Shown: piece after piece, positions 9,260 to 54,136 of the stretch
How the letters are laid out: each line of letters starts with the position of its first letter
Numbering within the stretch: position 1 is the first letter of the stretch
Source of the DNA: a virus
DNA: 64,000 bases
Strand: one strand, 5' to 3'
Virus record (IMG/VR): IMGVR_UViG_3300017971_007887
Location: 1-64,000 of that record
Translations under genes and position numbers: made by a program
Notes under the pieces: generated by a model
The model's database searches: none
What the model was told of the DNA's origin: nothing
Seen by the model: only the letters and a program-made list of their open reading frames with translations

Positions 9260-10939
9260 TCACCCCGCGTCGCGGTACGGCTTGTTGAGCCGCTCGCTCT
9301 GAACCACCATGATCATGTCCCTGATGTTGCTCAGCTCGTTGGCCAGCTCCATGTCCCGAAGCGCGTGCTCCCTGGTGAACGGCTGACCCCCTGGTAGTTG
9401 AGGGGCAACCTGGGCAGGCTCGGGTTCGGCCCGGATAGCCACAAGGATCTCCTCGATCTCGTCCTCCGGGATCTTGATGATGTTCTGCAACAGCCACCTG
9501 GTGGGCATCCGCAGGGCCGTCTTGGCCTGCCCTGCGATCTGCCACTTCAAGGCCTCCACCGTCATCTTCATCTGCTCATCCACGAAGCTGATGGGCGGAT
9601 AGATCACCTCGTACAGGCCCTTGACCGGGGGGATTGCCATCATGGTCAATTGGAAGTCGTACACGCTCCGCTGGAACGCGGCCATCTCCCGCTGGATCTT
9701 CCTGAGCATCCGGGCGAACTCGATGTCCTGCCAGGACAAGGTGGCCTTGGCGTTCACGTCCCGTTCCACCCCCAAGTAGCTCTTGGGCACCCCGGTGGCC
9801 ATGAAGATCTTGTTCTGGAAGTGCTCCACGTCCCGCAATTCCCCCAGGACCCCGGAGGCGGACAGGCGCTCCACCTTTGCCCCCTGCCCTTCAGGAGGCA
9901 CGGTTATGTAGAAGTCGTTACCATCGGGAAGAGGCCTGGACCGGCTGTCGATCTGTCCGGTGCTGCTGTCCATCACATTGCGGCGCTTCAGGTTCCTCTT
10001 GGCCTCCAGGATCAGGTTCTTGAGCTTGGCAGGAGAGGCGTTCCTGGGGGCCGGAATGCTGAACACCAGGTGGTCATCCGCCCGGTTGACTCGAGTCATC
10101 AGGACCCCGTCCTCCATAGTGCGCAGGTACCTCCACGGCTTCCTGGCGTTGAAGTAGAAGGACCGCCCATACTGGCACCCCCGTTTGTGGTTGTGCCGCA
10201 GGTGCCGCACCTGCCAGAACTTGAAGTGGATCTCCTGGTGGCTCCCTTCCCGCTTCATGGTGAACGCCTCTTCCGCCTTGAGCCGACCGAACTCGTCCTC
10301 GTTGCGGTACATGTGCTTTTGATTGAGCCACTTGAGCCTGGTGATCAGGAACCGGTTGTCGACCACCACCTCCTCGAAGTCGTCCCCATAATGCAGCATG
10401 CCGTCGCAGATCCCGGGGATCTCGTTCTGCATGTTGGTCCGCTCGTCCACCCCTTCCAGAGCCGCCAGCACCCTGGGCACCTTACTGGCCAGCTTGTAGC
10501 TCTCCTCGTCTCCGTCCCGGCTGCTGAACACGTTGGACACCGTCACTTCCCGGGCCCTGGCCAGCTCCACACACTCGGCATCGATGTACTCGTAGTCCTG
10601 GTACCTGGCCATCCGGGTGTTGTCGATCTTCAGCTGGTCGTAGTACTCATCGCTGCGGATTCCGCCCTGGCTGCTGCCGGTGGCCCCGCCGACCTCCGAG
10701 GTACCCTCGTCGTCCGCCTGGTCGGTAACGTGTCTGCTCATCGGCCGGACGAAGGAGGCGATCCTCTGGATCAGGTTCTGCTTCCTGCGAATATCCCGGT
10801 CACTCAGCATCTCCCGCAGGTCCTCCATTCGGACCAGCGCCCGCTCCTCCTCGCTCCGGGTCTCGGGATTCACGTAGGTGTCCACCGGGTACTTCTGCCG
10901 GACTTCCCTCTCGGTAACAACGGGGCGCTTCTTGGCCAT
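9260..10939 (-). CDS. Portal protein, T4 gp20-like
   Basis: 559 aa, close to T4 gp20 (about 520 aa). Recognisable by the ATGVPKSYLGVERDVNAKATLS region and the following long helices (QDIEFARMLRKIQREMAAF), typical of T4-type portals. It forms the dodecameric DNA entry channel at the head vertex and the docking site for terminase. Neighbours (MuF-like protein, protease, capsid) support this. The N-terminus MAKKRP is basic. Confidence 0.88.
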   Translation of the reverse strand: MAKKRPVVTEREVRQKYPVDTYVNPETRSEEERALVRMEDLREMLSDRDIRRKQNLIQRIASFVRPMSRHVTDQADDEGTSEVGGATGSSQGGIRSDEYYDQLKIDNTRMARYQDYEYIDAECVELARAREVTVSNVFSSRDGDEESYKLASKVPRVLAALEGVDERTNMQNEIPGICDGMLHYGDDFEEVVVDNRFLITRLKWLNQKHMYRNEDEFGRLKAEEAFTMKREGSHQEIHFKFWQVRHLRHNHKRGCQYGRSFYFNARKPWRYLRTMEDGVLMTRVNRADDHLVFSIPAPRNASPAKLKNLILEAKRNLKRRNVMDSSTGQIDSRSRPLPDGNDFYITVPPEGQGAKVERLSASGVLGELRDVEHFQNKIFMATGVPKSYLGVERDVNAKATLSWQDIEFARMLRKIQREMAAFQRSVYDFQLTMMAIPPVKGLYEVIYPPISFVDEQMKMTVEALKWQIAGQAKTALRMPTRWLLQNIIKIPEDEIEEILVAIRAEPEPAQVAPQLPGGQPFTREHALRDMELANELSNIRDMIMVVQSERLNKPYRDAG

Positions 10940-14342: not shown

Positions 14343-14594
14343 TCAATATTCCCTTTTGGCAATTCTGGCGAATATGTGCCCATTTGCTGCCATCTCATCT
14401 TTGCAGTCATCACACCAGCACAAGGGGCAGTCGTCACACATCGGAACAAACTCCGCCATCAACGTATCGTTCCACCAGAAGCCGCAATCATGTTCTGTGC
14501 CTGCGTCTGTTTCTGTCACTTTTAGATGTCTGCAGGTCTGGGCCGGTTTGTCTCCACAACGGCCACACATTCGTACCGATTTTTTGGGGGTCAT
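14343..14594 (-). CDS. Cys-rich small protein
   Basis: 83 aa, start MTPKKSVRMCGRCGDKP with a GGGAGGAAT ribosome site and ATGA coupling. Cys pattern CGRC, TCRH, CDDCPLCWCDDC suggests two zinc sites. Part of an island of small zinc-type proteins. Confidence 0.7.
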   Translation of the reverse strand: MTPKKSVRMCGRCGDKPAQTCRHLKVTETDAGTEHDCGFWWNDTLMAEFVPMCDDCPLCWCDDCKDEMAANGHIFARIAKREY

Positions 14595-23100: not shown

Positions 23101-23289
23101 CTACTCTCCCTTCACCACGATGCTGCCGAACACCACCAGCATAAACACCGGGAATGCGACAGGCCACAGCAGAACCATGGCCGCCCCGATCCTATCTAGC
23201 GAAAGTATGTAGTGCCCAAGCACCCAGCCAACAGCGGCGTACACATTCGCCGCACCGACGATCGACAGGACTGTCCAGTACCACTCCAT
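23101..23289 (-). CDS. Small membrane protein, two helices
   Basis: 62 aa, start MEWYWTVLSIVGAANVYAAV after AAGGAATAG. Two hydrophobic segments with a short polar turn (SLDRIG). Function unknown; holin-like size but away from the lysis genes. Confidence 0.7.
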   Translation of the reverse strand: MEWYWTVLSIVGAANVYAAVGWVLGHYILSLDRIGAAMVLLWPVAFPVFMLVVFGSIVVKGE

Positions 23290-23293
23290 ATCT

Positions 23294-23521
23294 CTATTCC
23301 TTCTTCAACGCAGCATCCAACTTCATATCCAGCAATAATTCCAAGTTGGCCAATCTATTCTCCAACGCACTTATCTTCTCAGCCATGTTCGCATTGACCG
23401 ACTTCAAGGTATCAATAATACCATCTACTTTATCCCAATACTCCCGCACCTGGACCGGTGCAGAATTATAACCTCATGTACACGGAGTATCCCAACATTT
23501 TACACAATCAGATAGTGCCAT
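23294..23521 (-). CDS. Zinc-knuckle coiled-coil protein with in-frame UGA (candidate selenoprotein or readthrough)
   Basis: ATG at 23521 follows GGAGACTGGT and reads MALSDCVKCWDTPCT, then UGA at 23474-23476, then in the same frame GYNSAPVQVREYWDKVDG and a coiled coil ending LLLDMKLDAALKKE before TAG. No start codon with a ribosome site opens the second half. The Cys pattern C-x2-C-x4-C-x-[UGA]-G-Y suggests that Cys belongs at the UGA. After UGA, 17 bases lead to a six-base loop beginning GGUC on a GCACC/GGUGC stem, within the usual bacterial SECIS geometry. Alternatives: TGT or TGC mutated or misread as TGA. Standard TGA stops are used by neighbours. Confidence 0.55.
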
Positions 23522-23543
23522 ACCAGTCTCCTCTCATCAGGGA

Positions 23544-24185
23544 TTAATTCACCTCCAGGACCTCATCCACCTGAGCCTTGGCCTCGGCGTCTATCTGCGC
23601 CAGATCCTGCATGATGTTCTCGTAGACCTCCGCGGACTTTACCCACTTCTGAATCACCACCAGGACCCTCTGCGTGATCTCCCTGGTGTGCGTGGCCACC
23701 ACGAACTTGTCCGCGATCCCCAGACCCTTCCTCTCCACATCCACACCCTTGGCCATCAACGGCACCAGCATTGCCATGACCCTCATGCCCTCCTTGACAT
23801 CCATTTCCCCGCTGTCCATCTGCCTGACGATGTTGACCGCCTTCTCCATGGCCACGCCAGCCGCCCCCTGCATGGCCTGCCCGACCTTGATGTGCCTGTC
23901 GGTGGCCTCAGCTATCTGTCTCTCCCTGCGTTCGGCGGCATCGATCTCCTGTTTCTCGGCCACCCGCCGGTCCACCCGCTCCCAGTGCTCCTTACGATAC
24001 CTCGACCAGTGCTCGGAAGTGCACCGCCTCCTGATGTTGTAGACGGAGCAGCCAGCGTGCCCCTCGAATTCCTCCGCTACTTCCTGGGTTGTATAACCAG
24101 GCGGATCGGAGTAGATGAACATCTCCCTGGGAGTCCGCCACTTGCTCCTCTTCCTTCTCTTCTTGGGTGCCCGCTTGCGTGCCAT
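23544..24185 (-). CDS. Probable small terminase subunit or DNA-binding packaging protein (tagged)
   Basis: 213 aa, start MARKRAPKKRRKRSKW by TGATG overlap. After the basic tag comes TPREMFIYSDPPGYTTQEVAEEFEGHAGCSVYNIRRRC, a helix-turn-helix-like unit as in phage small terminases, then a long helical region (oligomerisation) and an acidic end. Small terminase is the best guess from this architecture and the same-strand large terminase at 16 kb, not proven. Carries the recurrent MARKRAPKK tag. Confidence 0.5.
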   Translation of the reverse strand: MARKRAPKKRRKRSKWRTPREMFIYSDPPGYTTQEVAEEFEGHAGCSVYNIRRRCTSEHWSRYRKEHWERVDRRVAEKQEIDAAERRERQIAEATDRHIKVGQAMQGAAGVAMEKAVNIVRQMDSGEMDVKEGMRVMAMLVPLMAKGVDVERKGLGIADKFVVATHTREITQRVLVVIQKWVKSAEVYENIMQDLAQIDAEAKAQVDEVLEVN

Positions 24186-51418: not shown

Positions 51419-54136
51419 TTATAACAAACCACCTTCCTGCAAAAATCTGCTCGGTGACAGCGGCCTGACCTTGCCGCCCATCAACGCGCCCCTCGGACTG
51501 GTAATCATCAGATGGTCCCGCGCCCTGGTAACGCCCACATAAAACAATCGGCGTTCCTCAGCCGGCCCGACACCATCACCCTCAAATCCATCGGCCCTGG
51601 CATGGGGAAGCACCATCTCGCAGGCACCCGCCAAGAATACCACCGGCCACTCCAGACCCTTGGCCTTGTGCAAGGTGCTGATCCACACCGCGTCCGGCTG
51701 CTCGTCGTCCTCCTTGGCCTTCCTCTTGGTGTCCAGGATGTTGTCCACGTACTCCAGCATCTCCTTGGCCGTCTTGAACCTGCCGGCCGTTCGGCACAGT
51801 TCCCGAAGGTTGCTCAGCTTGCTGTTCTCCGCGGTGTCGGTGCCCTCGTCCTTGATGATCCACTCTTCGTATCCGCTCACCTCGATCAGCTTGGCCAGCG
51901 CCTGCGGAAGCACGCTCTGCTCGGCGTCGTTCGGCTCGATGTCGTCTCGCAGATTCTGTACCAGGCTGACGAACTCCTCGACCGCTCTTTCCTGCTTGCT
52001 CCAGATGCCCAGATCGTACATCCGAACATCGGAAGCTACCTGCATGAAGTTACCCGCCGACTCCATCTTGTCGATGGTCTTCTTGCCGATGAACCGCCAC
52101 GGTCGGTTGATGGCCCGTTTGGCGCTCTCCACGTCGTTCTCGTCCACGGCCACCCGCAGGTACGCCAGGATGTCGGCCACTTCTTTGCGCTTGTAAAACT
52201 CGGTGCCGCCGACTACCACGTGCGGGATTTTCTCCCGGATGCAGACTTCCTCGAACGCCCTGCTCTGCGCGTTGGTGCGATACAAGATCGCCATGTCCTT
52301 CCAATCGACTCCGTCCTCGTGATAGGCCCGGATGCGCTCGACCACCGTCTCCGCCTCCGCGTCCATGCTTTCGCAGGACACGTACTCGACCGGATTGTTG
52401 TCCGGCCTGGTGGCCACGTTGGTCTTGGTGATCCGGTCCGGCTCGTTGCCGGTGATCACTTGGTTGGCGATCTCCAAGATCTGCGGAGTGCACCGGTAGT
52501 TGTGCTCCATGCGGAACACCCGCGCGTTGAACCGCTCCTCGAACGTCAAGGTGTACTCCGGCACGCTCCCGCGCCATTCATATATGCAGTTGTCCACCAC
52601 GATGCCGTCCGCCACGTAGTTGTGATGCTCAGCCACCTCTAGGGATACGACTTCACCACTGTACTCCTCACAAAACTTCTTATGCACCGTTGTCCAACCA
52701 TTGCCCGAAAGATGAACCTGCATCATGCCAGGAATGATGTTCGCCGCGTATGCTCTAAATGTTTTGCTGCCATGTCTTCCACCCGCGCGTCCCCATTTCG
52801 ATTCCTTGCTTTTGCTAGATGGTGGAAACGGCCACAATGGACAGTGCTCCTGTAATTCGAAATCATCGAACAGAACATCGACAGTGCTGATTTTTCTAAC
52901 ATACCTGAACAAATCAGCCAGCCGTACTTGACCCAAAACATGCTTGGTCTGCGACTTAAAGCAAGCAGTTGGGATGCGATATTGTAAAGATATTTTTTGT
53001 TCCTGCAATGCCGCATCTCCCTTATTGTCGTAAACCGAAAGTATCCAAGCAGCGTCCGCTTCTTCCAGTCGTGCACGTTGTCCCAGGTGAAATGCACCGT
53101 CCATGTTGAACATCTGGCACCAGCCCACCCTGTAGTCGTCGCCCTTTTTCATCAGGTAGCACGCCCATCGTTCGGTTTTCTTGTCCGCCCATCTGACTGG
53201 AATCTTGTGATCTGATGTCGCCCTGGTTGAACAGTGACCTGCAAGAATCGTGTACAGGTCGCCATAGTACGAACGCCGTTTGGTGCGAACAACTCTCCTG
53301 TGCCCACCCACCTTACCATTGTGAGACTGGAACACCCGAACCATGTCACCGACTTCTAAGGAACCAAGTTCGACTATTCCGTCTGCAGTTTCTACTTCGG
53401 TGTCCGGTGGCTGGCACTGGTCGTCGTCACCGACCACCAGCAAGACCTTGGCCTTCTCTGCCAAGATCTTCATCAACTCGTACTGAGCCGCGTTGCTGTC
53501 CTGGAACTCGTCCACGATCACGTGATCGAACATGCCCTGCCACTTGCCGCGGGCATGCGGGTCTTCCTGCAGATACCAAACCGCCCCGGACATCATGTCG
53601 TCGAACGTCAGCAGTCCCAGCAAGTGCCGGCACCGCTCGTACTTGCGATAGACCTCGACGTACCGATGGTCCGGGTGACTGGCGTCCTCCGGCTTGACCA
53701 GGGAGCCCTTGCAGTTGCTGATGTACTGCTCCAGGTCGGTGATGTCGGCGTCTTCCCACTCCATGCCGAACACCCCGCTGTTCTCGACGGCTTCCTTTTT
53801 GCACCAGCCCAAGATGTCCTTGAGCACATAGTGCATCTTGTTGCCGTCCACCTTGTACTCGGCTTCGGGGCTGCCGTCGCGAACGATCTTGTATCCCAAG
53901 CTGTGCAAAGTGCGCACGTCCACTTGGGGTATGCCGATCCGCTCCTGCATCTCCAACGCCGCGTTCTTGGTGAACGTGGTGCACAAAATCCGCTTGGCCG
54001 AGCAGCCCTCGTCCACTCGCTTCCTGACCCAGCACTCGACGGTGTGTGTCTTTCCCGAGCCCGCGACCGCGCAAACGATTGCGTTGCCCTCGGTGTGGTT
54101 CACCACTTCTTGCTGTGTCTCGTTCAGCTTTTTCAT
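51419..54136 (-). CDS. UvrD/PcrA-like SF1 helicase precursor containing an intein
   Basis: 905 aa precursor. Helicase parts: Walker A AGSGKT (residues 25-30), TTFTKNAALEM (Ia), VIVDEFQDSN (II), VVGDDDQ, then after the intein CIYEWRGS (III), HNYRCTP (IV), WISTLHKAKGLEWP (V) and YVGVTRARDHL (VI). Removal of residues 241-516 restores GDDDQCIYEWRG, where most relatives have Ser. Mature protein about 629 aa. Likely roles are displacement of proteins from DNA or support of recombination and repair. Leader module 2 precedes it. Confidence 0.92.
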   Translation of the reverse strand: MKKLNETQQEVVNHTEGNAIVCAVAGSGKTHTVECWVRKRVDEGCSAKRILCTTFTKNAALEMQERIGIPQVDVRTLHSLGYKIVRDGSPEAEYKVDGNKMHYVLKDILGWCKKEAVENSGVFGMEWEDADITDLEQYISNCKGSLVKPEDASHPDHRYVEVYRKYERCRHLLGLLTFDDMMSGAVWYLQEDPHARGKWQGMFDHVIVDEFQDSNAAQYELMKILAEKAKVLLVVGDDDQCQPPDTEVETADGIVELGSLEVGDMVRVFQSHNGKVGGHRRVVRTKRRSYYGDLYTILAGHCSTRATSDHKIPVRWADKKTERWACYLMKKGDDYRVGWCQMFNMDGAFHLGQRARLEEADAAWILSVYDNKGDAALQEQKISLQYRIPTACFKSQTKHVLGQVRLADLFRYVRKISTVDVLFDDFELQEHCPLWPFPPSSKSKESKWGRAGGRHGSKTFRAYAANIIPGMMQVHLSGNGWTTVHKKFCEEYSGEVVSLEVAEHHNYVADGIVVDNCIYEWRGSVPEYTLTFEERFNARVFRMEHNYRCTPQILEIANQVITGNEPDRITKTNVATRPDNNPVEYVSCESMDAEAETVVERIRAYHEDGVDWKDMAILYRTNAQSRAFEEVCIREKIPHVVVGGTEFYKRKEVADILAYLRVAVDENDVESAKRAINRPWRFIGKKTIDKMESAGNFMQVASDVRMYDLGIWSKQERAVEEFVSLVQNLRDDIEPNDAEQSVLPQALAKLIEVSGYEEWIIKDEGTDTAENSKLSNLRELCRTAGRFKTAKEMLEYVDNILDTKRKAKEDDEQPDAVWISTLHKAKGLEWPVVFLAGACEMVLPHARADGFEGDGVGPAEERRLFYVGVTRARDHLMITSPRGALMGGKVRPLSPSRFLQEGGLL
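52589..53416 (-). mobile_element. Intein in motif III of the helicase
   Basis: 276 residues (241-516). Begins with Cys in CQPPDTEVETADG (block A), has the TSDH block B (RATSDHKIPVRW), and ends with EVAEHHNYVADGIVVDN before Cys+1 (blocks F and G, terminal Asn; His in EHHN). No LAGLIDADG motif. The middle has WILSVYDNKGDAALQEQKIS followed by LQYRIPTACF, which may be a remnant or a different endonuclease-like helix pair. The DNA is A+T-richer than the flanking helicase, fitting later insertion. Confidence 0.9.

Follow-up and report, generated by a model that had tools for sequence, protein, structure and literature searches.

An in-frame UGA at a conserved cysteine position marks a candidate selenoprotein gene in a phage

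Formate dehydrogenase H of Escherichia coli, the product of fdhF, carries a proven selenocysteine (Sec), and the hairpin that follows its UGA has a 4-nt loop and a bulged U. The bulged U is important for E. coli SelB. Bacteria and archaea have been searched intensively for selenoproteins. Among the metagenomic candidates is the FmdB family, represented by 2 Sec and 807 Cys sequences (PMC2398784). A rule for metagenomic selenoproteins asks for at least two UGA sequences and treats singletons as candidates only, since a sequencing error may underlie them (PMC1088965). In the open literature we found no report of a phage-encoded selenoprotein, only a tRNA-Sec predicted in Basilisk-like Bacillus phages (PMC6145125). 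Those phages provide another hint of phage selenocysteine use, but the hint is a tRNA gene call and not a selenoprotein. Here we describe a phage gene in which a UGA occupies the position of a conserved Cys and is followed by a strong hairpin; unlike the Basilisk-like phages, the virus that carries it yielded no tRNA in the sequence examined.

The DNA analysed, hereafter the window, comprises 64,000 nucleotides and belongs to a longer IMG/VR virus record (IMGVR_UViG_3300017971_007887; 71,522 bases). A sequence-only reading of the window had proposed that one small gene continues through an in-frame UGA. The minus-strand frame from ATG 23521 to TAG 23294 bears this out, reading MALSDCVKCWDTPCT-UGA-GYNSAPVQVREYWDKVDGIIDTLKSVNANMAEKISALENRLANLELLLDMKLDAALKKE, with GYNSAPVQ directly after the UGA and KKE at the end. 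The entire frame fits between the end of the upstream gene at 23544 and the start of the next gene at 23289. In favour of Sec, the 59 open codons 3' of the UGA are coding-like by codon score and end 4 nt before the next ATG. The same reading held that the downstream half has no start of its own, which proved too strong: a formal start, GTG 23449, opens a 51-aa ORF, though it has no evident Shine-Dalgarno and sits within the 3' arm of the hairpin. The features of the locus are as follows.

23294..23521, minus strand: candidate selenoprotein gene, 75 codons with the UGA read through, then TAG (reading frame)
23528..23532, minus strand: Shine-Dalgarno AGGAG, 6 nt 5' of the ATG (sequence)
23521-23519, minus strand: start ATG (reading frame)
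23468..23521, minus strand: conserved N-terminal phage module MALSDCVKCWDTPCT-U-GY, residues 1-18 (relatives and profile)
23474..23476, minus strand: in-frame UGA (TGA), site of the fourth module Cys (reading frame and relatives)
23438..23469, minus strand: SECIS-like hairpin (folding)
23469-23467 with 23440-23438, minus strand: short lower stem of the hairpin (folding)
23465-23457 with 23450-23442, minus strand: upper stem of the hairpin (folding)
23456-23451, minus strand: hairpin loop GGUCCA (folding)
23294..23449, minus strand: alternative 51-aa ORF from GTG 23449, with no evident Shine-Dalgarno (ORF listing)
23296-23294, minus strand: stop TAG (reading frame)

Folding the 40 nt after the UGA produced the hairpin UUCUGCACC-GGUCCA-GGUGCGGGA, with a minimum free energy of -14.7 kcal/mol including the short lower stem (z -2.59; 3 of 200 shuffles were equally good). 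Its 9-bp stem begins 8 nt past the UGA and its loop begins after 17 nt, confirming the GGUC-starting stem-loop that had been noticed by eye. Scored in the same way, E. coli fdhF reaches -13.9 kcal/mol with a GGUC loop after 18 nt, and checking the fdhF letters against E. coli genomes verified that its loop indeed begins with GGUC. The two differ in that the candidate has a 6-nt loop and an unbroken upper stem without the bulged U of fdhF, a feature that counts against Sec, and in that its Sec is only predicted. Rfam returned nothing at the gathering threshold, and the weaker matches were implausible.

The candidate hairpin satisfies all published limits for bacterial SECIS elements: a loop of 3-9 nt, a stem of 4-16 bp, a G in the first two loop bases, a spacing of 16-37 nt and an energy of at most -7.5 kcal/mol (PMC13188914). 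The claim that it lies inside the known bacterial SECIS range is thus correct, but it is weak evidence alone because about half of random GC-matched sites pass. Within the window, the -7.5 limit was passed by 54% of random minus-strand sites and by 50% of GC-matched ones, and we conclude that these limits have little discriminating power when the genome is 60% GC. The hairpin stands out by its quality instead. None of 37 Cys relatives reached an energy of -14.7 kcal/mol, whereas 5.8% of random minus-strand sites and 2.9% of GC-matched ones did. Perfect stems of 9 bp or more combined with a G[GU] loop were present at 0.8% of all sites and 1.3% of GC-matched ones, in 2.2% of codon-order shuffles and in 0.2-0.7% of synonymous recodings, figures that are somewhat flattering, as the 9-bp threshold was chosen after the candidate was seen. 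None of 56 ordinary TGA stops was followed by a perfect 9-bp stem with such a loop. Overall, the hairpin ranks among about the best 1-3% of sites in this genome, and the Cys relatives have nothing to match it.

Residues 1-18 of the candidate belong to a widespread phage N-terminal module, MxxSDCxxCW[DE]TPCxCG[HY]. We scanned IMG/VR with C-x2-C-W-[DE]-T-P-C fixed and the codon at the UGA position left open. The scan returned 41 stretches, 40 real members and one chance match. Cys (TGT or TGC) stands at the UGA position in all 40 members, a few of which are the same or near-identical proteins, and TGA in none, which favours Sec; these searches may omit records very close to the window. The expectation of Cys at this site is therefore well founded, and the homologue alignment that the sequence-only reading had proposed places Cys where the candidate has UGA in every IMG/VR relative found. 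Isolate phages PhiPA3, PhiXhv-12, PhiXhv-15, Ep032 and RHph_Y1_11 also have Cys there. An exception is Pseudomonas phage PA1C, where Ala replaces the fourth Cys (CSCCWETPCHAGG; positions 401-601 of the PA1C stretch). Ala in the PA1C clade is the only natural replacement that we saw, and it argues against Sec. No relative that we read ends at the UGA position.

Further IMG/VR scans, which looked for TGA at the fourth Cys, at each of the module's Cys positions or within a relaxed motif, found no TGA member; all that they returned were chance matches or Cys members. We found no second UGA member in IMG/VR, isolate phages or GTDB genomes, where three TGA matches do not resemble module genes. With Cys written at the UGA, hmmsearch against the module family profile gave an E-value of 2e-18 for one sequence. 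In every aligned sequence a Gly comes directly after the UGA position, as it does in the candidate, and the next residue is commonly Tyr, as here; since both lie in frame beyond the UGA, the alignment indicates that the frame is continuous or was until recently.

Beyond residue 18, the candidate protein is unlike its relatives. We considered whether a SECIS segment had been inserted relative to the Cys homologues and rejected the idea, as the region after residue 18 mismatches the profile with or without a gap. An AlphaFold model shows residues 1-22 without helix or strand, at moderate confidence, followed by a single helix (residues 23-74), and the C-terminal part is probably a long coiled-coil helix. 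Searching viral structures with Foldseek gave PhiPA3 gp218 as the best match, which was not significant. This protein and other unnamed Cys-module proteins share the N-terminal module with the candidate but have Cys in place of its UGA and an unrelated C-terminal part. The module has no named family in Pfam, PHROGs or NCBIfam and no credible relative in the PDB. Across phages it is fused to varied C-terminal parts, and many of its carriers are jumbo phages. The module gene of Rhizobium phage RHph_Y1_11 adjoins a putative terminase small subunit (positions 404-556 of its stretch). The gene beside the candidate (window 23544-24179, minus strand) is similar in character to a terminase small subunit and matches no family. 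Like FmdB, the candidate is a small protein with a Cys motif in which UGA takes the place of a Cys, and Cys homologues are far more numerous. FmdB, however, has two UGA sequences and a CxxU motif (PMC2398784), whereas the candidate is a phage gene with one UGA sequence and CxU.

The window encodes a T4-type major capsid protein Gp23 (144-1370) and portal protein Gp20 (9260-10939) on the minus strand and represents a phage of less than 80 kb of known sequence. Its terminase large subunit is less than 30% identical to those of isolate phages. Terminase and polymerase relatives were all distant and mixed, and we therefore assigned no host; two neighbouring genes had no relatives in IMG/VR. A second assembly of the same virus, IMGVR_UViG_3300017963_000643, extends 5,747 bases past the first base of the window, which implies a genome larger than the 71.5-kb record. 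The metagenome of that second record also gave a Hydrogenedentes genome (PMC7449369), which says nothing firm about the host. Elsewhere in the window we observed a UvrD/PcrA-type helicase (51419-54136, minus strand) with an apparent intein at about residues 243-517 (CQPPDTEVETADGIVELGSLEVGD...HNYVADGIVVDNC), whose C-terminal splicing region scored above the NCBIfam cut-off, and a Cys-rich 83-aa ORF with a Shine-Dalgarno (14348-14594, minus strand; MTPKKSVRMCGRCGDKPAQTC...CDDCPLCWCDDCK).

UGA serves as a normal stop in other genes here, as had been claimed: TGA closes 56 of the 93 putative genes, which rules out genome-wide reassignment (code 4 or similar). At four other sites in the record, a Shine-Dalgarno-preceded ORF ends in TGA and stays open for 40 codons or more beyond it, within a gap that no gene covers. 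The extensions at these sites look non-coding, and the best stems there measure 3-6 bp.

Our preferred, still tentative, reading is that of a phage selenoprotein made through the host Sec machinery, in which Sec replaces one Cys of a four-Cys knuckle in an unnamed family of no known function. Host SelA, SelB, tRNA-Sec and SelD would be used to read UGA 23476-23474 as Sec. The hairpin just 3' of the UGA would direct insertion by binding host SelB with Sec-tRNA, and this decoding would compete with RF2. The full 75-residue protein would then be made solely in selenium-replete cells. Its motif, C-x2-C-W-D-T-P-C-x-U-G, would form a Cys3-Sec knuckle ahead of a long helix, probably a coiled coil, and the product may be oligomeric. 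Here we infer both Sec insertion itself and a Sec-using host, and we take only from the spacing C-x2-C-x4-C-x-U that the protein may have a metal-binding or redox function. Some observations point the other way. The four Cys of the tight C-x2-C-x4-C-x-C arrangement in the relatives look like a structural or metal-binding knuckle and not a catalytic site. The record contains no selA match, and the absence of tRNAs from the virus sequence examined likewise weighs against Sec.

The strongest competitor, to which we give substantial weight, is a real nonsense mutation. In this reading a small, dispensable gene of recent acquisition has changed from TGT or TGC to TGA, leaving a stop after 15 residues and a coincidental hairpin. 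A single base change would be enough, yet Cys to TGA makes up just 4 of the 36 single-base nonsense routes in this gene, and the frame 3' of the UGA is intact. The composition of the gene makes decay plausible: its GC content is 42.5% against 60%, its GC3 is 48% against 81%, and the modules most similar to its own at the DNA level come from mostly low-GC phages. Because of this AT-richness and affinity, we regard recent acquisition of the gene as probable and its decay as possible. That the UGA form is a singleton among 40 or more relatives also fits a mutation and argues against Sec. Half of random sites would offer a hairpin within the published SECIS limits, but one of such quality is rare. 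Together, the Cys position and the top-1-3% hairpin strongly favour Sec over a random nonsense change; we nonetheless place the two about even, because a phage selenoprotein has a very low prior, with none reported in the open literature that we found.

Less probable is that the UGA is a working stop, either with low-level or regulated read-through without Sec or ending a 15-residue peptide, in which case GTG 23449 would start a separate coiled-coil gene. The 51-aa ORF would fill most of the gap, and module homology stops at residue 18, with the remainder matching no relative. Its GTG lacks an evident Shine-Dalgarno and lies inside the hairpin stem, however, and termination at the UGA position has no counterpart in the relatives read. 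An assembly or sequencing error at one base, with the virus truly carrying TGT or TGC, seems slightly more doubtful still. The TGA rests on one assembly, as the contig of the second breaks off at window 22927 and so misses the gene by 367 bases. Base errors look rare, with one mismatch in the 22,927 bases shared, although the assemblies may not be independent, and the coding strand showed no further interrupted gene. Having weighed these four readings by judgement rather than computation, we regard Sec as the most likely single mechanism, but not as likelier than the broken-gene readings combined. As a single UGA record falls short of the two sequences asked for, the gene is a candidate only and is not classed as a bacterial selenoprotein (PMC1088965).

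If the Sec reading is true, infection would be tied to the selenium status of the host, and Sec would be placed in a small, non-enzyme Cys knuckle. It would also provide an easy search strategy, namely UGA at a Cys of a phage module followed by a strong hairpin. Should it prove false, the analysis still brings to light a phage Cys module that is widespread but has no name, and it demonstrates that at 60% GC the published SECIS limits are of little use as a filter.
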